Shown here: one piece after another, positions 14,506 through 33,430 of the stretch
Numbering within the stretch: position 1 is the stretch's first letter
How the letters are laid out: every line of letters starts with the position of its first letter
Source: Clostridiales bacterium
GTDB taxonomy: Bacteria > Bacillota > Clostridia > Saccharofermentanales > Saccharofermentanaceae
Assembly (NCBI GenBank): GCA_017519205.1
Contig: JAFWSW010000033.1
Span: 1-43,306, forward strand
Direction: 5' to 3'
DNA length: 43,306 nt
Position numbers and translations under genes: made by a program
The notes under the pieces: model-generated
Told to the model about the DNA's origin: nothing
The model's input: the letters and a program-made list of their open reading frames with translations, nothing else
Databases searched by the model: none

Positions 14506-16980
14506 TCACTTTGCAACGATGTTTGCCAGTCTTCCCTTAACGTAGATGAACTTGACGATGGATCTTCCGGCGAGAGCAGTTTCGAGGTGACTGTCTTCCT
14601 TAACGATCTTCTCGACATCTTCCTGTGTTGAATCCGGAGCGATGTTGACCTTGAACTTCACCTGACCGTTGATCTGAACAGCGATCTCGATGGTATCCTT
14701 AACGAGCTTGCTCTCGTCGCATACCGGCCAAGCCTGATTGAAGATCGAGTATTCATTGCCCATTCTCTCCCAGAGCTCTTCAGTAAAGTGAGGAGCGTAC
14801 GGAGCATAGAGCAGAAGGAATGTCTCGACTGTAGATCTTAAGAGCGCATCGTTCTTGTTCGCAGATCCCTGATACTTGCCAATCGCGTTCAGGAGCTCCA
14901 TGAGACGTGCAATGGAAGTGTTGAACTGGAATCTCTCTGTATCTGTTGTTACGGCCTTGATGGTGTAGTTCAGGCTGTAAAGGAGAGCCTTATCTTCTTC
15001 GGAAAGATCGGTCGGCAGAGCCTGTCCCTTGGCAATGCCGGATACTTCTTCAACGAGACGGTCGATACGTCCGGTGAACTTAACGATCGCCTGAAGTCCG
15101 CTCTCACTCCACGGACCGCCGTCGGTGTATGCGAAACCGAAAGCGAGGTAGGTTCTGAATACGTCGGAACCATACTTCTGGATGTACGGATCCGGTGCGA
15201 CAGTGTTTCCTCTGGACTTACTCATTCTGTTTCCGTCAGGTCCGAGGATGATTCCCTGGTGAACAAGAGAAGTGAACGGCTCGTCGAAATCAAGGTAACC
15301 CATATCACGGAGTGCCTTACAGAAGAAACGTGTGTACAGGAGATGCATGGCAGCATGCTCCGGACCACCGACGTACTTATCGACCGGGCACATCTTATCG
15401 ATGAGTTCTCTGTTGAAAGGTTCCTTATCGTTCTTGTTATCCGGGTAACGGAGCTGATACCAGGAAGAGTCAACGAATGTATCCATGGTATCCGGATCAC
15501 GCTTGGCCGGAGCACCGCACTTCGGGCAGGTAGTGTTCATGAACTCTGCACACTTTGCCAGCGGAGACTCTCCATCCGGACGGAATTCTACGTCATAGGG
15601 GAGAAGTACCGGGAGCTGATCGTCCGGTACCGGAACGACGCCGCACTTCTCGCAGTGAACGACCGGGATCGGAGTACCCCAGTAACGCTGACGGGAGATC
15701 AGCCAGTCACGGAGACGGTAGTTGATCTTTCGTTCTGCCATGCCCTGCGGCTGGAGCTTCTCAATGATCGCATCGATCGCTGTCTTGAAGTTCAGACCGT
15801 CGAATTCACCGGAGTTAACGAGAATACCTTTTTCAATGAACGGGAGTTCATCCTCAGCATCTGCAGAGGATGCGATAACTCTCTGGATCGGGAGATCGAA
15901 CTTCTTAGCGAACTCGTAGTCTCTCTCATCGTGAGCCGGAACAGCCATAACCACACCGGTACCGTATGTTGCGATTACGTAGTCGGAAGCCCAGATCGGA
16001 ACTTTCTTTCCGGTGATCGGGTGGATCGCATAAGAACCTGTGAAAACACCGGTCTTCTCACGTGTGGTGGACATTCTGTCGATATCGGAAGCCTTCTTGT
16101 TGAAAGCCTGATACTCTTCTACTTTTTCTCTGCACTCATCTGTTGTAAGAAGTGTGCACAGCGGGGACTCCGGTGCAACTACAACATAGGAAACGCCCAT
16201 CAGGGTATCTGCACGAGTGGTAAATACGGAAAGCTTCAGATCGGAACCGTCTTCGTCCTTGAGGCGCTCTCCGTTCTTCTCGCAGAGGAAGGAGATCTGT
16301 GTACCCTCGGATCTGCCGATCCAGTTGGTCTGGATCTTCTTGGTCTTTTCCGGCCAGTCGAGCTGAGGCAGGCAATCGAGAAGTTCCTGAGCATAAGCGG
16401 TGATCTTGAAGAACCACTGCGTCATGTTCTTGTGCTCTACCTCAGTGTGGCAGCGCTCACATGCGCCGTCGATGACCTGCTCGTTGGCAAGTACGGTATT
16501 ACACTGTGGGCACCAGTTTACCGGTGCATTCTTTCTGTAAGCCAGACCCTTCTCGAGGAGTCTTAAGAAGATCCACTGGTTCCACTTATAGTATTCCGGC
16601 TTGCATGTCGCGATCTCATAATCCCAGTCATAGGTAGCGCCCATGTTCTTGAGCTGCTGCTCCATGATCTCGATGTTATGGAGAGTGGAATCCTTCGGAT
16701 GGATACCTGTCTTGATCGCGTAGTTCTCTGCAGGGAGTCCGAAGGAGTCAAATCCCATCGGATGGAATACGTTATAGCCCTGCATTCTCTTCATACGGGA
16801 CCAGGAGTCGGTCAGGGAGTAGTTGTACCAGTGACCGAGGTGTAGATTTGCTGCGGACGGGTACGAGAACATCTCAAGAACATATAGTTTCTCGCCCTTC
16901 TTATTCGGATCAAACTTATAAAGTTTGGTGTCTTCCCATTTCTTTTGCCATTTACGATCGACATCGGTTGAATAGGCCAT
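14506..16980 (-). CDS. leuS: Leucyl-tRNA synthetase
   Basis: It attaches leucine to tRNA-Leu. The class I signatures are present: the HIGH motif as [12 protein letters not shown] near residue 46, and KMSKS as [15 protein letters not shown] near residue 580. A zinc-type module [14 protein letters not shown]...CERCH and the CP1 editing domain (VYVAVDTLMG-type [23 protein letters not shown]) lie between them, and an anticodon-binding plus C-terminal beta domain finish the protein. At 824 residues it is complete. The start codon follows a GAGAGG ribosome site. The upstream region is only about 200 bases, shared with the divergent gene, and has no T-box features. Confidence 0.98.
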
Positions 16981-17102: not shown

Positions 17103-17131
17103 TTGATATGTTTCCGGCTTTTCGGTATAGT
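17103..17131 (+). promoter_or_regulatory. Promoter of the zinc-ribbon/TPR gene pair
   Basis: TTGATA (17103-17108) and TATAGT (17126-17131) are exactly 17 bases apart. The predicted start near 17138 leaves a leader of about 57 bases before the ATG at 17195. Confidence 0.65.
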
Positions 17132-17194: not shown

Positions 17195-18637
17195 ATGACA
17201 CTGATCAAGAGCCATACATGCACCAGATGCGGCGGAACGCTGGTCGTCCATAACGACCGCAAGCAGTACGAATGCCCGTATTGCAGTGTCTTTTATGACT
17301 ACGAGTATTTCAGGTCCCGGGATATCCTTGATCAGGCAGATTCTTCTCTGAAGATGCTCCAGTATGCGTCAGCGAAAGAGAAGTACGATTTTCTCCTTAC
17401 GAAAGATCCCCATAGTTTCCGTGCGCTCCGCGGAATCCTTCTTTGTGATGCGAAGATCAACCGGCCGTCCGAGTTATCGAAGCCGGAGAACGTTTTAAGG
17501 ATCACGCCGGCCTCTCTTAGTGAAGCCGAAGAAGATGCAAGAGAGGAAGAGAAAGCGTATTTTTCCAAGATCCGTCTTATGTATGAGATCGCAAAGTATT
17601 CCCGCGCCAACCAGCAGGAAAAAGAGCGGATCGAGAAGGGCCGCGAGCAGTTATTTGAAACTCAGGCGGAGCGCTCCGAAGCACTCGCCAAAAACAGAGA
17701 AAGAAGCAAGAGATTTTCAGAAGAGTTCGCCAAGCTTTATAAGCAGCTTTCGGAACTTGAGCCTGAAGAGGTTAAAGTAAGAAGCGATGAGCAGAAAGAA
17801 TCCGGCCTTATTCAGGTGAACTTAAAGGTGTCAAAGTCCTGTGCTTCCTGCGGCGGCGAGCTGATCGTCAATCTCGACAGACAGGTATATGAATGTCCTT
17901 TCTGCGGTGTGACCTACGACTTCGATTTTATCCGCGATGAGACAGCGATGGACGAGGCGGAAGAAGCGCTTTCGAAGTCCCAGTTTCTCAAGGCGGACGC
18001 GATCTATGCATACATCCTTACCGTTGATCCGAAGAACTTCACCGCACTTCGCGGACGTATCCTCTGCGCGGCGAAATGGACAGGCATAAGGATCGCATCA
18101 AAGAATGCGGAGATCTATATGCGCAAAGCACATATTCCGACCATGAAAGAGCGTGTCGAAGAAGCCATCTCCGTCTGCGACAGTGCGGACAGACCGTACT
18201 TTGAAGAATTCGGGAAGATCTTCCCGGAATATGAAAACTACATTAACAACAGCAGTCCGACGAACCGCTTCAGAAAAGACAGTCACCGCCTGACAAAGAC
18301 AAGAGGTGAACTCGAAGATGAGATGGATGTCCTGAGAGATGAGAGGGATAAGTATCTCGATGAGCGTGACAAGCGCAGAAAAGACGGCATTTTCTTACTT
18401 GAGGAAATCTACTATAGTGCGAAAGCGAATGCGGTGCAAAAAGAGATAAATGAAGTGTACGACAGCAGATCGATCGTCGATGAACAGTTAAGTGAGACCG
18501 TCGAGGAGATCTCCAAACTGAGTACGGAAGCGCAGCACTCCATCAAGGTGATCGAAAAGCACCTGAGAGATATACTGAAGATCGAAACAGACAGGGAACT
18601 GTCACAGAAGGCTACCGGAGGACCGAGTGAGACATGA
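17195..18637 (+). CDS. Double zinc-ribbon / TPR-like protein, copy 1 (480 aa)
   Basis: The protein is an internal duplication. Each half starts with a four-cysteine zinc ribbon (Cys9, 12, 27, 30 and Cys216, 219, 234, 237; pattern CxxCGG...YECPxC). Each ribbon is followed by a TPR-like helical hairpin (YASAKEKYDFLLTKDPHSFR and FLKADAIYAYILTVDPKNFT, each then continuing ALRGxxLC) and a long charged coiled-coil stretch (about 125-205 and 355-465). No signal peptide or membrane segment is visible, so it is likely cytosolic. The ribosome site is GGAGG. Its stop overlaps the start of its paralogue by four bases (ATGA). Zinc ribbons of this kind bind nucleic acid or protein; TPR-like repeats bind proteins. 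I do not recognise a characterised family and give no function. Confidence 0.85.
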   Translation: MTLIKSHTCTRCGGTLVVHNDRKQYECPYCSVFYDYEYFRSRDILDQADSSLKMLQYASAKEKYDFLLTKDPHSFRALRGILLCDAKINRPSELSKPENVLRITPASLSEAEEDAREEEKAYFSKIRLMYEIAKYSRANQQEKERIEKGREQLFETQAERSEALAKNRERSKRFSEEFAKLYKQLSELEPEEVKVRSDEQKESGLIQVNLKVSKSCASCGGELIVNLDRQVYECPFCGVTYDFDFIRDETAMDEAEEALSKSQFLKADAIYAYILTVDPKNFTALRGRILCAAKWTGIRIASKNAEIYMRKAHIPTMKERVEEAISVCDSADRPYFEEFGKIFPEYENYINNSSPTNRFRKDSHRLTKTRGELEDEMDVLRDERDKYLDERDKRRKDGIFLLEEIYYSAKANAVQKEINEVYDSRSIVDEQLSETVEEISKLSTEAQHSIKVIEKHLRDILKIETDRELSQKATGGPSET

Positions 18638-20067
18638 CACTGATAAAGAGCCATAGCTGTACCAAGTGCGGTGGCGTTCTTATCGTTCACAACGACCGTC
18701 AGCAGTATGAATGCCCGTATTGCAGCGTCAATTACGATTATGAGTATTTCCGCTCCCGTATCATTCTTGAGCAGGCATCTGTTTCCCAGAAGATGCTGCA
18801 GTATGCTTCCGCGAAAGAAAAGTACGATTTTCTCCTGAAAAAAGACCCTCATAATTTTGTCGCACTTCGCGGGAATCTTCTCTGTGAAGCCGGGATCAAC
18901 CGTCCGGAAGAATTATGTAAGCCGGAGCGTGTCGTTATGCTTCGTCCCGATTCTCTGGTGCATGCCGAAGAGATGGCGGATGAGGAAGGAAAAGAGTATT
19001 TTCACAGACTTCGTCTTCTGCGGGAGATCGCAGGTTTTGTTAATTCAAACCGGCAACTGAGAAGAGATATCGAAAGAGGTATGGTGAAAGTCTGTACGAA
19101 CAGAACGGAGGCGCTTGAGAAGAATAAGGCGCTGCTCGAAAGATTCACTTCGAGTTTTCGAAATCTCTATTCACAGCTGCTTGAGCTGGAGCCGGAAGAG
19201 GTCAAACAGGAAGCGCTCCGGAAGAGTTCCGGAAAAGACGCGAAACACGATGATGACAAGCAGGTTAGACTGGAGATGTCTCCGTCGTGCACATCCTGTG
19301 GCGGCGAACTGATCGTTAATCTGAACAGACAGGTCTATGAATGCCCGTTCTGCGGGTTGTCGTTTGACTTTGACATCATTCGTGATGAGACAGCAGTTGC
19401 TGAAGCACAGGATGCTCTTTCGAAGCAGCAGTTCCTCAAAGCGGACGCGATATATAGATACATCCTTACGGTCGATCCGAAAAACTTTGCGGCGCTTCGC
19501 GGACGGATCCTCTGCGCGGCCAAATGGCCGGATCTGGGTACCACGATACAATATGCGGAGTATTACATGGAAAAAGCACACATCCCGTCATTGAAGCTTC
19601 GTATCGAGGAAGCGCTTGGCGCCTGTGAAGAATGTGACAGACCTTTTTTTGAGGGCTTCAAAAATACTGTCCCGGATATTGAAGCATTCGTAAAGGTCTC
19701 CGCTCCGTCAAATGCTCACAGAAGAAATAAAGATCGTCTGCGCAAGGAACTGTTGGAACTGGAAAAAGAATATGAAAAAGTGACAATACAATACGAAGCG
19801 CTAAATAGAATGGTACCCGGACGGTATAATGAGTTTGCGGAGGGGCTGACACCACAGCAAGAGCGGATAATGGCTAAACTTTACTACAGAAAGGAAGCTA
19901 TTGAAAGAGAAATGAAAGATCTACGGCCCTTGATCAACAAGAATGAAGAAGGTGTCACCGAGTTGGATCAAAACGGCGTGTATATGATAGGAAATATCCG
20001 TCAAAACCTCGCAAGTCTTCTGAACTTCGAGTGGCGCAAGAGTCAAAAAGAAGGAACCGCGGAGTAA
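18634..20067 (+). CDS. Double zinc-ribbon / TPR-like protein, copy 2 (477 aa)
   Basis: A tandem paralogue of the preceding gene: by manual count about 73 of the first 90 residues are identical, and the module order is the same. The zinc ribbons are Cys9, 12, 27, 30 and Cys219, 222, 237, 240. TPR-like hairpins follow at about 50-90 and 258-298, and coiled-coil segments at about 135-205 and 370-465. The C-terminal coil has diverged most and contains a different Pro/Arg-rich stretch (MVPGRYNEFAEGLTPQQERI). Translation is coupled to copy 1 by the ATGA overlap, so the two products are made together and may form a hetero-oligomer. The stop codon lies in the loop of the terminator hairpin. Confidence 0.85.
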   Translation: MTLIKSHSCTKCGGVLIVHNDRQQYECPYCSVNYDYEYFRSRIILEQASVSQKMLQYASAKEKYDFLLKKDPHNFVALRGNLLCEAGINRPEELCKPERVVMLRPDSLVHAEEMADEEGKEYFHRLRLLREIAGFVNSNRQLRRDIERGMVKVCTNRTEALEKNKALLERFTSSFRNLYSQLLELEPEEVKQEALRKSSGKDAKHDDDKQVRLEMSPSCTSCGGELIVNLNRQVYECPFCGLSFDFDIIRDETAVAEAQDALSKQQFLKADAIYRYILTVDPKNFAALRGRILCAAKWPDLGTTIQYAEYYMEKAHIPSLKLRIEEALGACEECDRPFFEGFKNTVPDIEAFVKVSAPSNAHRRNKDRLRKELLELEKEYEKVTIQYEALNRMVPGRYNEFAEGLTPQQERIMAKLYYRKEAIEREMKDLRPLINKNEEGVTELDQNGVYMIGNIRQNLASLLNFEWRKSQKEGTAE

Positions 20068-20081
20068 CGCGGTTCCTTTCA
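20051..20081. terminator. Terminator overlapping the stop codon of the second zinc-ribbon gene
   Basis: AAGGAACCGCG (20051-20061) pairs with CGCGGTTCCTT (20068-20078), and the loop GAGTAA contains the TAA stop codon. T-rich DNA follows on the plus strand and A-rich DNA precedes it, so it can also end the convergent TraX-like gene. Confidence 0.85.
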
Positions 20082-20095
20082 ATTTGCTTTTTAGA

Positions 20096-20938
20096 TTATG
20101 AAACGAGATACGCAGTGGTTGCGCAGATGGCGATGATCAGCGGGTAGAAGAGATAGAAAGTACGGTAGAACATCTTCGGTTTCTTTCTCTTTTTGTTCGG
20201 AAGAAGAAGGCAAAGCAGAAAACCCGCAAGGGAAGTTCCCTCCCAGGTGATTATCCCGGTCATGCGGAAGTAAAGATATGTATAGCACGCAGAAAAAGCC
20301 GTAAAGAAGATCATCGCGACGAAAACGCGGTTGTCGATCTTCCACCGGTGCAGAAAGTAGAACATCAGCGTACACATGACCGACATCAATGACATCGTCA
20401 GCGGAAGAAAGGTGATCAGGGTCATGCAAAGTGCGAATAAAACGATGGCCAGACCATGGAATGTAGATCTCGGCCAGGCGGGGACTTTCATGCCTTTAGG
20501 AAGGTTATTGGCATCTGTGCTGGAGATCACGACGCCGTATCTTGTGCTGTGGGATGTCTGATTCGCATCGAGAAGATTCATCGACGCGACACGGTCACGC
20601 GGAAGTGAGACAAGCAGTTCCACACCAAACAGGATGATAAAGGCGATCAGCCAGGTGAATACGATATTGAATCGTGTGGGCTTCGGCCCGTCTTTCCAGC
20701 AAAGATAGGAGATCAGGAAGACCGCCTGCGATGCATATGCCGTGAAGGCGATGCGGAGAAAATAGCGGTACGTGTTTCTTGTCAGGAAGAATCCTTCAAC
20801 CAGGGCCTGTGCGAAGAAGGGCATGGAGAAATAACCGATGATAGTCAGCACGAAAATGACCGTAGAGGGCAGGATCCCGTCGAAAAACAGGGCCGCCGTG
20901 CCGCAGATCATGAACAGATATGCCAATATCTTCTTCAC
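20096..20938 (-). CDS. TraX-like multi-pass membrane protein (280 aa)
   Basis: There are about eight hydrophobic segments spread over 280 residues and short charged loops. The stretch FSMPFFAQALVEGFFLTRNT, continuing YRYFLRIAFTAYASQ, is the hallmark of the TraX family (in F plasmids the member that acetylates pilin; most chromosomal members have no known substrate). The start is a GTG at 20938 preceded by GGGGG; the overlapping ATG at 20940 is out of frame. It stands alone, convergent with the zinc-ribbon pair and divergent from mreB. An acyltransferase role is only a family-based guess. Confidence 0.7.
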   Translation of the reverse strand: MKKILAYLFMICGTAALFFDGILPSTVIFVLTIIGYFSMPFFAQALVEGFFLTRNTYRYFLRIAFTAYASQAVFLISYLCWKDGPKPTRFNIVFTWLIAFIILFGVELLVSLPRDRVASMNLLDANQTSHSTRYGVVISSTDANNLPKGMKVPAWPRSTFHGLAIVLFALCMTLITFLPLTMSLMSVMCTLMFYFLHRWKIDNRVFVAMIFFTAFSACYTYLYFRMTGIITWEGTSLAGFLLCLLLPNKKRKKPKMFYRTFYLFYPLIIAICATTAYLVS

Positions 20939-21075: not shown

Positions 21076-22086
21076 ATGGGCTTAGGATTAGATATTGGAA
21101 TTGATTTGGGCACAAGCAGTGTCCTTATTTATGTTCGCGGTAAGGGCGTCGTTCTTAAGGAGCCTTCCGTAGTAGCAGTAAATACGAAGACAGGTACCGT
21201 TCTCGCGGTAGGTGAGTCTGCTTCTCTGATGCTCGGTAGAACGCCGGGGGTCGTCGAGGCGATCCGTCCTCTGAGAGATGGCGTTATTTCCGACTTTAAA
21301 GTAACCGAAGTTATGCTGAAGGCTTTCATCGGCCGTGTATGTCAGGGTATCCGTGCGACATACTTCCGTCCGACGATCGTCGTATGTGTTCCTTCCGTTA
21401 TTACTCCGGTTGAGCAGAAGGCTGTTGAAGATGCCTGCCGTCATGCCGGTGCGAAGGATGTATTCCTGATCCGTGAGCCGATCGCAGCTGCTATCGGCGC
21501 GGGTATCGATATTACAAAGGCCTGCGGTTCCATGATCGTAGATATCGGTGGTGGTACGACAGATATCGCAGTCATCTCTCTCTGCGAGCCTGTAGTTGAC
21601 TTCTCCCTGAAGGTTGCGGGCGACAAGTTTGATGAAGCGATCGTTAAGCACGTTCGTCGTAAGCACAACGTCCTTATCGGTGAGAAGACCGCGGAAGAAT
21701 TAAAGATCAACATCGGATGCGCATATCCGAGAGAAGAAGAAATGACCATGGATGTACGTGGACGTAACCTGATCACAGGTCTTCCGGCCACAGTTACTGT
21801 TTCTTCCACCGAGATGCTCGAGGCACTTGAAGAGCCGGTAGCGGCGATCTTCGATGCCGTACACTCCGTACTCGAGAGAACTCCGCCGGAGCTTATGGCT
21901 GATATCTCCCAGCGTGGTATCGTAATGACCGGTGGCGGTGCTCTGCTTTATGGTCTCGATCGTATGCTTGCCACTAAGATCGGTATCGATGTATGTGTTG
22001 CTGAAGATACCGTTTCCTGTGTTGCGATCGGTACCGGTAAAGCTCTCGGTATGATGGATAAGTTCGCTGCTCTCGGCGATACCTGA
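21076..22086 (+). CDS. MreB/Mbl-type rod-shape actin homologue
   Basis: This bacterial actin polymerises under the membrane and guides cell-wall synthesis. The ATPase signatures are intact: LDIGIDLGTSSVLIYVRGKG (phosphate 1), MIVDIGGGTTDIAVIS (phosphate 2) and RGIVMTGGGALLYGLDRML (adenosine site). VLKEPSVVAVNTKTG and EAIRPLRDGVISDF are family signatures. Its 336 residues fit MreB or Mbl, and sequence alone does not separate the two. It is mono-cistronic, with its own promoter and a strong terminator, and no mreC or mreD is adjacent, which favours an Mbl-like or second MreB copy. The ribosome site is GAGGTG. Confidence 0.94.
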   Translation: MGLGLDIGIDLGTSSVLIYVRGKGVVLKEPSVVAVNTKTGTVLAVGESASLMLGRTPGVVEAIRPLRDGVISDFKVTEVMLKAFIGRVCQGIRATYFRPTIVVCVPSVITPVEQKAVEDACRHAGAKDVFLIREPIAAAIGAGIDITKACGSMIVDIGGGTTDIAVISLCEPVVDFSLKVAGDKFDEAIVKHVRRKHNVLIGEKTAEELKINIGCAYPREEEMTMDVRGRNLITGLPATVTVSSTEMLEALEEPVAAIFDAVHSVLERTPPELMADISQRGIVMTGGGALLYGLDRMLATKIGIDVCVAEDTVSCVAIGTGKALGMMDKFAALGDT

Positions 22087-30126: not shown

Positions 30127-30756
30127 TTACCAGTTGACTTTCTTGGTGAGGATGAGTGCCCAGTTGTCCTTCAGCTTCAGCTCGACGGTACTGTTCACCT
30201 CGTATTGCTTCGATGTGGAGCCTAAAGGAAGAAGAATGAATTTCTTTCCTTCCGATGTGTCCACGAGGATCTTGACCTTCTGTCCGTTGACGCCGTTATA
30301 TGCGACGGTGTCATCCATATAGCCGTATACTACGCCGCTTCTTTCAACGCCGTGCTTCTTGACCTGGAGGTGACGGAATACCGTTCTCAATGCGATGCCG
30401 ATCGCAACGAATCCGATCAGCATGAACGGGATCGTGAACAGCGTCATCGATTTGCCCATGTTTCCGGATCCTTCAAAAGCACTGTCCACGAAGAGTGAGA
30501 TCAGGAACATCGGTAAGGAAACACAGAGGAAAATACCTCCGAATATAAGAGGAAAACCGACGTTCCAGAAACCGAGTCTGGCATTCTTGCACTCGACGAG
30601 CGGATACTCCGGCGTCAGGTCAGCAGTAGCGACTTCTCCGATATAAGTGCCGCAGAACTGGCAGACCTCTGACAGAAGCGGAGCGCCGCATTTGGGACAG
30701 CTTCTCACATCTTCCGGGTTTTTCTTATGTGGATTATTCAGTCGGATATCACTCAT
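30127..30756 (-). CDS. Zinc-ribbon membrane protein (209 aa)
   Basis: The N-terminal zinc ribbon CPKCGAPLLSEVCQFCGTYIG (residues about 20-40) is followed by two transmembrane helices (about 65-90, VGFPLIFGGIFLCVSLPMFL; and about 105-125, LFTIPFMLIGFVAIGIALR). A C-terminal beta domain of about 80 residues (VVYGYMDDTVAYNGVNGQKV and following) recalls the DUF3592-type domain. The ribosome site is GGAGG. Its start overlaps the stop of the SPL-like gene (ATGA). Its role in the operon is unknown. A second membrane protein with a zinc ribbon heads the same operon, which suggests a shared membrane-associated function. Confidence 0.75.
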   Translation of the reverse strand: MSDIRLNNPHKKNPEDVRSCPKCGAPLLSEVCQFCGTYIGEVATADLTPEYPLVECKNARLGFWNVGFPLIFGGIFLCVSLPMFLISLFVDSAFEGSGNMGKSMTLFTIPFMLIGFVAIGIALRTVFRHLQVKKHGVERSGVVYGYMDDTVAYNGVNGQKVKILVDTSEGKKFILLPLGSTSKQYEVNSTVELKLKDNWALILTKKVNW

Positions 30757-32623: not shown

Positions 32624-33430
32624 TTAACCCTTTCTTTCCGAACGTACGCCCAATCCGACGGAGACGATCAATGCGATAGGAGCAACGATAGACGTGATCG
32701 CTGCCGATTTGGTATCCATATGGAATCCGTATGCCAGTACCATGAACAGAACAAGCGGTACGAAGCACAGAAATGAGATCACGATGAGCACGATGGACAG
32801 AGGTCCTTCGCGATATACCGCATAAGCGATGCCGGCAACCAGCACGAGACAGATCGGGATGATCGCAAGGATCGGGAACCCGACGATCTCCTTGAGAAGT
32901 AATCCCAGGACAGCAGGGATGACCAGACCGATGATCACGGCAAAGGGGATGTTTTTCTTCCTTTCCGTGACCTGCAGTTTCCTGCATTCCTCGATGCGGG
33001 CTGCCGAGTTTCTTACATTGGGGATCTTTTCGTATTCGGAGAGTGCCATACGATATCTCTTTTTTTCAAAGTGGCTCTCTGCCGTGGCATAGTGCTTGAG
33101 GTCATCGGATTCCTTCATTCCGTCCTTACATGCGGCGTGAAGCTCGGATGCGATCGCATCCGTACGCAGGCACTCGGTCGAGGCACTCTGGAAAAGAAGC
33201 TTCGCCTGGGCACAGTTGGTGACATCCGGTTTATCGTCCAGAAGAGCACGTGCTTTCTTCATCTTTTCAATTGCGGAAGCATAGTTTTTATATTCAGGAA
33301 GGAGATCCTGCATGGACCATGTGTTTTTGCAGTATGCGCATACACAGGAACCGGAGAGATAATCGTTGATGATCTCTCCGCCGCAGATCTTGCACCTCAG
33401 GGAATTTGGCTTTGCTGTTACATCCGGCAT
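32624..33430 (-). CDS. Zinc-ribbon / TPR-like membrane protein (268 aa)
   Basis: It has a zinc ribbon at residues about 13-34 (CKICGGEIINDYLSGSCVC, then AYC), a helical repeat region (about 45-150, including AESHFEKKRYRMALSEYEKI, a TPR-like hairpin), then three to four transmembrane helices (about 165-260: VIIGLVIPAVLGLLL, ILAIIPICLVLVAGIAYAV, IVLIVISFLCFVPLVLFMV, AITSIVAPIALIVSVGLGV). The soluble ribbon-plus-repeat half resembles the tandem proteins at 17195-20067, so this may be a membrane-bound relative. It is the first gene of the five-gene operon, with CGGAGA as ribosome site. No function is known. Confidence 0.75.
   Translation of the reverse strand: MPDVTAKPNSLRCKICGGEIINDYLSGSCVCAYCKNTWSMQDLLPEYKNYASAIEKMKKARALLDDKPDVTNCAQAKLLFQSASTECLRTDAIASELHAACKDGMKESDDLKHYATAESHFEKKRYRMALSEYEKIPNVRNSAARIEECRKLQVTERKKNIPFAVIIGLVIPAVLGLLLKEIVGFPILAIIPICLVLVAGIAYAVYREGPLSIVLIVISFLCFVPLVLFMVLAYGFHMDTKSAAITSIVAPIALIVSVGLGVRSERKG

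Follow-up and report, generated by a model that had tools for sequence, protein, structure and literature searches.

A tandem pair of zinc-ribbon-TPR genes at a variable slot in gut Clostridia encodes putative adaptors homologous to part of the TIR proteins of SPFH operons

Introduction

What might be the role of two overlapping genes that together encode four copies of one zinc-ribbon module, and how did they come to stand side by side? We addressed this question for genes A and B, which lie in a 43,306-nt stretch of DNA, referred to here as the window (contig JAFWSW010000033.1 of assembly GCA_017519205.1), from a Clostridiales bacterium of the Saccharofermentanaceae. An earlier sequence-only reading had described them as translationally coupled members of an undescribed family, derived from an old internal duplication followed by a recent gene duplication, and had suggested that their products form a two-subunit complex. 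The genomes that we compared are mostly draft metagenome assemblies, and are designated by G numbers where they need to be told apart. Features are listed in Table 1.

Table 1. Features of the gene pair, its surroundings and a related operon. Positions are those of the window unless a contig is given.
Feature	Position	Strand	Description and basis
leuS	14506..16980	-	Fixed left border of the variable slot; gene-order comparison
Promoter	17103..17131	+	5′ of gene A; sigma-70-type, TTGATA-17-TATAGT, 10/12 matches; predicted
Gene A	17195..18637	+	480 aa (P0001); two ZR-TPR modules, coiled coil after each; first-in-operon class
Putative exchanged cassette	17195..18655	+	99.2-99.4% identical to G008 and G021; edges at A and B start codons
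Module A-M1	17207..17584	+	C4 ribbon, TPR and YF helix; module profile E 1.6e-51; AlphaFold2 model
Module A-M2	17831..18223	+	Module profile E 1.4e-52
ATGA overlap	18634..18637	+	Start/stop overlap of A and B, 4 nt
Gene B	18634..20067	+	477 aa (P0002); two ZR-TPR modules with coiled coils; last-in-operon class
Module B-M1	18646..19020	+	Module profile E 4.5e-49
Module B-M2	19279..19671	+	Module profile E 6.9e-50; AlphaFold2 model
Intrinsic terminator	20050..20079	+	12-bp stem, overlaps the stop of B; sequence scan
TM280	20096..20938	-	280-aa membrane protein, fixed right border of the slot; no Pfam match
mbl/mreB-like gene	21076..22086	+	Past the slot; gene-order comparison
SPFH(Band_7_1)-4TM-[ZR-TPR-TIR-DUF6273] operon	C92:581-4712 (L035)		The window's own genome, different contig

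Results

The Gene Pair and Its Repeated Module

Both open reading frames are present as the sequence-only reading had placed them, and they overlap by an ATGA. Since a promoter-like sequence precedes A and a terminator stands at the 3′ end of B, the pair appears to be a complete two-gene unit; the chance rate of the promoter scan is not negligible, and a similar promoter-like sequence is also present in most other congeners that bear an array of such genes. The 4-nt overlap is found at most array junctions and is conserved in most congeners, and the proposed translational coupling is plausible. The proteins are acidic, with pI values of 5.5 (A) and 6.2 (B) and of 4.8-5.0 for the second (M2) modules.

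As had been described, each protein contains two CxxCGG-x10-YECPxC ribbons, each followed by helices ending in ALRG-x2-LC and then by a coiled coil, and AlphaFold2 models agree with this layout. The length of about 90 residues assigned to the module was somewhat too short, as the module also takes in a helix that bears a conserved [DE]xxYF motif (alignment A1). We thus define a module of ~130 residues comprising a CxxC-x14-CxxC ribbon, three helix pairs that include the ALRGxxLC motif, and the helix with the YF motif. A chance motif is ruled out by profile E-values of 1e-49 to 1e-52 for all four copies and by the near-universal cysteines of related modules: all four are found in 109 of 110 modules from related genomes, the lone exception being cut by a contig end, and the 14-residue spacing is found in 108.

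AlphaFold2 predicted one module with a pLDDT of 90 and the whole of B with a pLDDT of 82, with a coiled coil after each module. When module residues 31-127 were compared to solved structures, the matches listed were overwhelmingly TPR domains, many of them peptide-binding; the best among those listed was SycD (Z 10.0, 3.5 Å, 86 residues), and Tah1, HOP and CHIP were also listed. The modeled module therefore has the TPR helix-pair fold, which it has in common with peptide-binding chaperones and adaptors (SycD/PcrH/IpgC, Tah1, HOP, CHIP; Z about 10). This is a common fold that does not by itself show function, and these proteins, unlike the module, have no zinc ribbon and are only 8-20% identical to it in sequence. 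No Pfam TPR model scored above its curated cut-off (TPR_16 reached 21.3 bits vs. a cut-off of 32.7), and solved-structure searches gave no significant match beyond TPR and coiled coil. Fold searches with whole proteins were uninformative, with long helices (LSD1 tower, adaptor hairpins) dominating the results. The heads are conserved and the coiled coils variable, with A and B being 81% and 73% identical in their heads and 47% and 33% identical in their tails.

Boundaries of the Family

Searches of Pfam, NCBIfam, PHROGs and PADLOC gave only generic ribbon-sized or sub-threshold TPR matches for A and B. No enzymatic domain was found in either protein in these domain searches, and PADLOC gave no full-length match to a protein of an anti-phage system, only short ribbon or coiled-coil matches. 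Identity as a Cas12f/TnpB nuclease was considered and rejected, as the matches cover ~30-60 residues around the ribbon, which is followed by TPR and coiled coil with no RuvC around the TNB ribbon. Viral contigs, phages and plasmids were searched without finding relatives, and an origin from phages or plasmids was likewise discarded.

An order-wide profile search matched 80 of 188 genomes at E ≤ 1e-15, with 1-21 module matches per matching genome. All belong to two genera (g1 and g2) of one family, and the other genera of that same family gave zero matches at this threshold. In a phylum-wide search of 398 genomes, E 1e-10 was passed only by the window's own genome and by one weak match, a protein of the ZR-TPR-TIR type discussed below. 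The relatives that carry names, for example Mageeibacillus sp. UBA1193 and Clostridiales of the rumen or omasum, are metagenome assemblies.

In the window's genome, the module profile detected paralogs on contigs C59, C227 and C134 and, weakly, C169; most paralogs sit away from the array locus. Those on C59, C227 and C134 are single- or double-module proteins with a two-TM hairpin and share the module of A and B at E-values of 1e-38 to 1e-44. The C59 protein has its TM pair between two modules, while C227 carries two single-module two-TM genes that overlap by 4 nt, as A and B do. Such hairpin paralogs are mostly membrane-anchored, whereas A and B have no hairpin. One family member is encoded by two genes in G027 and by a fused gene in G023 and G032, which, together with the C227 pair, indicates that the family passes back and forth between tandem single-module genes and fused ones.

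A profile search with the module thus matched no well-characterised family. The description of the family as undescribed holds in that it is unnamed and that no curated family covers the module, but not in the sense of an orphan, given the many same-genome paralogs and the homology to the adaptor part of ZR-TPR-TIR proteins. In the open-access literature we found neither a ZR-TPR family nor an SPFH-TIR operon like those below described, and other papers may exist.

Further ribbon and TPR loci were observed. The window itself encodes a 268-aa protein with a CxxCGG ribbon, a TPR-like part and multiple TM segments (32624-33430, minus strand), a similar stretch of which is HTH-fused in G023 (L116 8223-8891) and a related gene of which adjoins an SPFH gene (L124 10355-10999), as well as a 209-aa zinc-ribbon protein with transmembrane segments and no clear family beyond the ribbon (30127-30756, minus strand). 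The C227 pair (L032 3003-6813) lies directly 3′ of a response-regulator-GGDEF-EAL gene and a gene for a small Hpt-like protein; the gene 5′ of the corresponding pair differs in G007. A single-module ZR-TPR two-TM gene (about 370-430 aa; L051-L061) is conserved in many members of the genus and usually has a response regulator nearby, along with a large protein whose sequence begins ...STKxIKAGK. Another lineage expansion is seen on contig C121 of the window's genome, in which three tandem genes encode double-zinc-ribbon membrane proteins of about 410 aa (L034 6709-11204).

Age of the Duplications

The modules of A and B correspond in the way that had been proposed: A-M1 and B-M1 are 81% identical over the first 90 residues (about 80% had been claimed) and 72% over the module, while A-M1 and A-M2 are 33% identical. 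In a module tree, the M1s and the M2s of arrays form separate groups, so the duplication that gave two modules per gene came first. The second event was, contrary to the sequence-only reading, not recent. A and B are 54% identical as proteins and 60% as DNA, with a dS of about 2.9. Synonymous sites are saturated in heads and tails alike (pS 0.66 in the first 90 codons), which implies that the A/B duplication is old; the paralog classes predate the sampled species. The ~80% identity of the heads is therefore attributed to purifying selection rather than recency. Gene conversion between heads, considered as its source, is unsupported given this head pS in the window; some conversion is possible, judging from synonymous divergence, in G011, G012 and G022, where head pS is 0.46-0.48.

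A Variable Slot and Apparent Exchange of Whole Genes

We found the order leuS|slot|TM280|mbl|rho preserved across 21 congeneric genomes (its ends being absent where contigs stop). The slot contains 0-3 array genes, with 1-3 in 12 of the 21 genomes; the remaining nine slots are empty or hold a DUF4190/zinc-ribbon gene, an ECF-sigma pair or a lipoprotein-like gene. No partner gene is fixed beside the array among the congeners compared. In G003, the upstream leader is retained and the gene is absent, which looks like loss.

The first array genes of G008 and G021 match gene A at 99.2% and 99.4% identity, with a dS of 0.02, vs. flanking dS values of 0.62 for leuS, 0.65 for mbl and 1.5-1.7 for TM280 (1.7 for G008). 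The flanks of these gene copies, 25 kb in all, are only 75-90% identical. Identity sets in no more than about 15 bases from the start codon of A and ends just past the ATG of B, and the downstream partner of gene A in G008 and G021 differs from the B gene of the window. The same pattern is seen for a 441-aa type (G008, G015, G021) and a 572-aa type (G007, G015). The simplest reading of these comparisons is that whole ORFs have been replaced, with homologous recombination taking place in conserved leaders and starts of ORFs. The main worry is assembly error at short conserved stretches, as the edges fall on conserved 5′ ends of ORFs, where contigs from metagenomes could have been wrongly joined. 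We consider such an artefact quite improbable: gene A occurs in three assemblies, two of them with a downstream partner unlike that of the window, the two other types repeat the pattern, and the leader without a gene in G003 points to real loss.

Two other irregularities were seen at the slot. TM280 itself was apparently exchanged, being 97% identical to its counterpart in G015, where nearby DNA is 75-87% identical, and 71-80% identical to those of most other congeners. A copy (85%) of the leuS 5′ end and leader lies inside the arrays of G015 (L099 3337-3586) and G008 (L096, reverse strand), the trace of a duplication or insertion event at the leader.

First and Last Genes of Overlapping Operons

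In a tree of full-length proteins, the last genes of overlapping operons (8/8) fall in one clade (10 rows, support 100/100), and the eight first genes all lie outside it; TM hairpins occur only in members that do not belong to this last class. After the exchange, gene A again precedes a last-class partner. This conserved pairing of classes lends support to the proposed two-subunit complex but falls short of showing it, and could also reflect plain inheritance of an old gene order.

Homology to ZR-TPR-TIR Proteins

Weaker matches across the class (~1e-12) were to proteins of 500-1250 aa in which an N-terminal CKMCGG ribbon and TPR are accompanied by a TIR_2 domain and a further stretch of TPR. 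Aligned with hhalign, the module and the head of these ZR-TPR-TIR proteins matched with a probability of 98.3% (E 1.9e-14) over 91 collinear columns, with the N-terminal ribbon, the TPR and the ...LC motif in register. The ZR-TPR-TIR genes, often several in a row, lie in an operon with genes for an SPFH (Band_7_1) protein and a protein with 4-5 TM segments. The window's own genome has one such operon (Table 1), and operons of this type, each having one to several TIR genes, are present in other Clostridia as well (L134-L142). Both kinds of protein, then, form tandem runs and occur in this genome. Unlike the ZR-TPR-TIR proteins, A and B have the module doubled, are confined to two genera, and have neither a TIR domain (no match in domain searches), nor a WG/DUF6273 C-terminus, nor an SPFH (Band_7_1) gene beside them in the window. 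As the module corresponds to the adaptor head that elsewhere is placed before TIR, A and B are made up entirely of such heads.

The closer SPFH type was found in 9 of the 12 array genomes and in 0 of the 9 whose slot lacks an array (Fisher p 0.001, confounded by relatedness). Compared along a FastTree species tree, array and SPFH gene change together in the sister pairs G010/G016 and G003/G001 but not in G008/G021, with G008 having an array and no SPFH match. We therefore offer the link of A and B to an SPFH-TIR system as a hypothesis suggested by homology and by this relatedness-confounded co-occurrence.

Discussion

We propose, with moderate confidence, that A and B are paralogous non-enzymatic adaptor or scaffold proteins, heteromeric and membrane-proximal, that perhaps feed a sensing or conflict system. 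The most likely form of this proposal, judging from sequence comparison and structural models, is that they are paired cytosolic adaptors close to the membrane that bind peptides or partners via their TPRs. Each ribbon would bind a structural zinc, and the TPR groove would bind a peptide or partner; conservation of the heads suggests one common to all members. The variable coiled coils would decide assembly, with one first-class and one last-class protein, made in step from one mRNA, forming a heteromer. The cytoplasmic face of the membrane would be the ancestral site, as suggested by the two-TM hairpin between the modules of paralogs, whose heads are predicted to be on the same side, and A and B would be soluble derivatives. 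The least secure part is the pathway: the homology shared with the adaptor region of ZR-TPR-TIR proteins of SPFH operons suggests that the system which A and B would feed is membrane-associated and serves sensing or conflict, not housekeeping.

Alternatively, the array may be a variable set of conflict or immunity cassettes, anti-phage or interbacterial, each directed at a different foreign factor and turned over by selection. While presence/absence and 0-3 copies at a single slot, exchange of whole ORFs between species and homology to TIR-linked adaptors would all fit such a set, we regard it as unlikely, since neither protein contains a toxin, nuclease or effector, both have only generic ribbon matches in PADLOC, relatives in phages or plasmids were not found, and whole-gene dN/dS between classes is low (about 0.1-0.3), with no sign of diversifying selection at the whole-gene scale. 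It also seems distinctly unlikely that A and B are nucleic-acid-binding regulators in which the ribbons bind RNA or DNA and the TPR only dimerises. The top library matches of the ribbon are indeed of that kind (PRK14890 Zn-ribbon RNA-binding protein at E 2e-6, Cas12f1-like TNB, TFIIB-type), but they span just the 30 residues of the ribbon and at best barely reach the cut-offs; moreover, both proteins are acidic and have no HTH or other DNA-binding domain, and the paralogs are membrane-anchored. A role in cell shape or envelope growth with the neighboring mbl and TM280, to which the conserved gene order and the constant adjacency of TM280 and mbl might point, is very improbable, as nine congeners retain leuS, TM280, mbl and rho with the slot array-free or holding unrelated cargo and the paralogs lie mostly elsewhere in the genome.

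Extending the adaptor proposal, one could imagine the slot as a recombination platform that shuffles whole-ORF adaptor cassettes, with conserved ORF starts as crossovers, conserved ribbon-TPR heads that would dock on a shared membrane SPFH-TIR machinery and variable coiled coils as interchangeable specificity parts, giving a repertoire of receptors or adaptors built through horizontal exchange of cassettes; we consider this full scheme improbable.

These results define an unnamed adaptor family based on a zinc-ribbon-TPR module of about 130 residues, multiplied up to about 20-fold in two genera of gut Clostridia, and homology ties this family to a widespread and apparently undescribed type of SPFH-TIR operon. 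They also reveal a locus at which whole genes appear to swap from one species to another, the exchanged segments being bounded by start codons. Should the adaptor reading be true, the locus would represent a natural case of cassette-wise diversification, with no dedicated recombinase in sight, and the family would provide an entry point to the wiring of TIR proteins in gut Clostridia.
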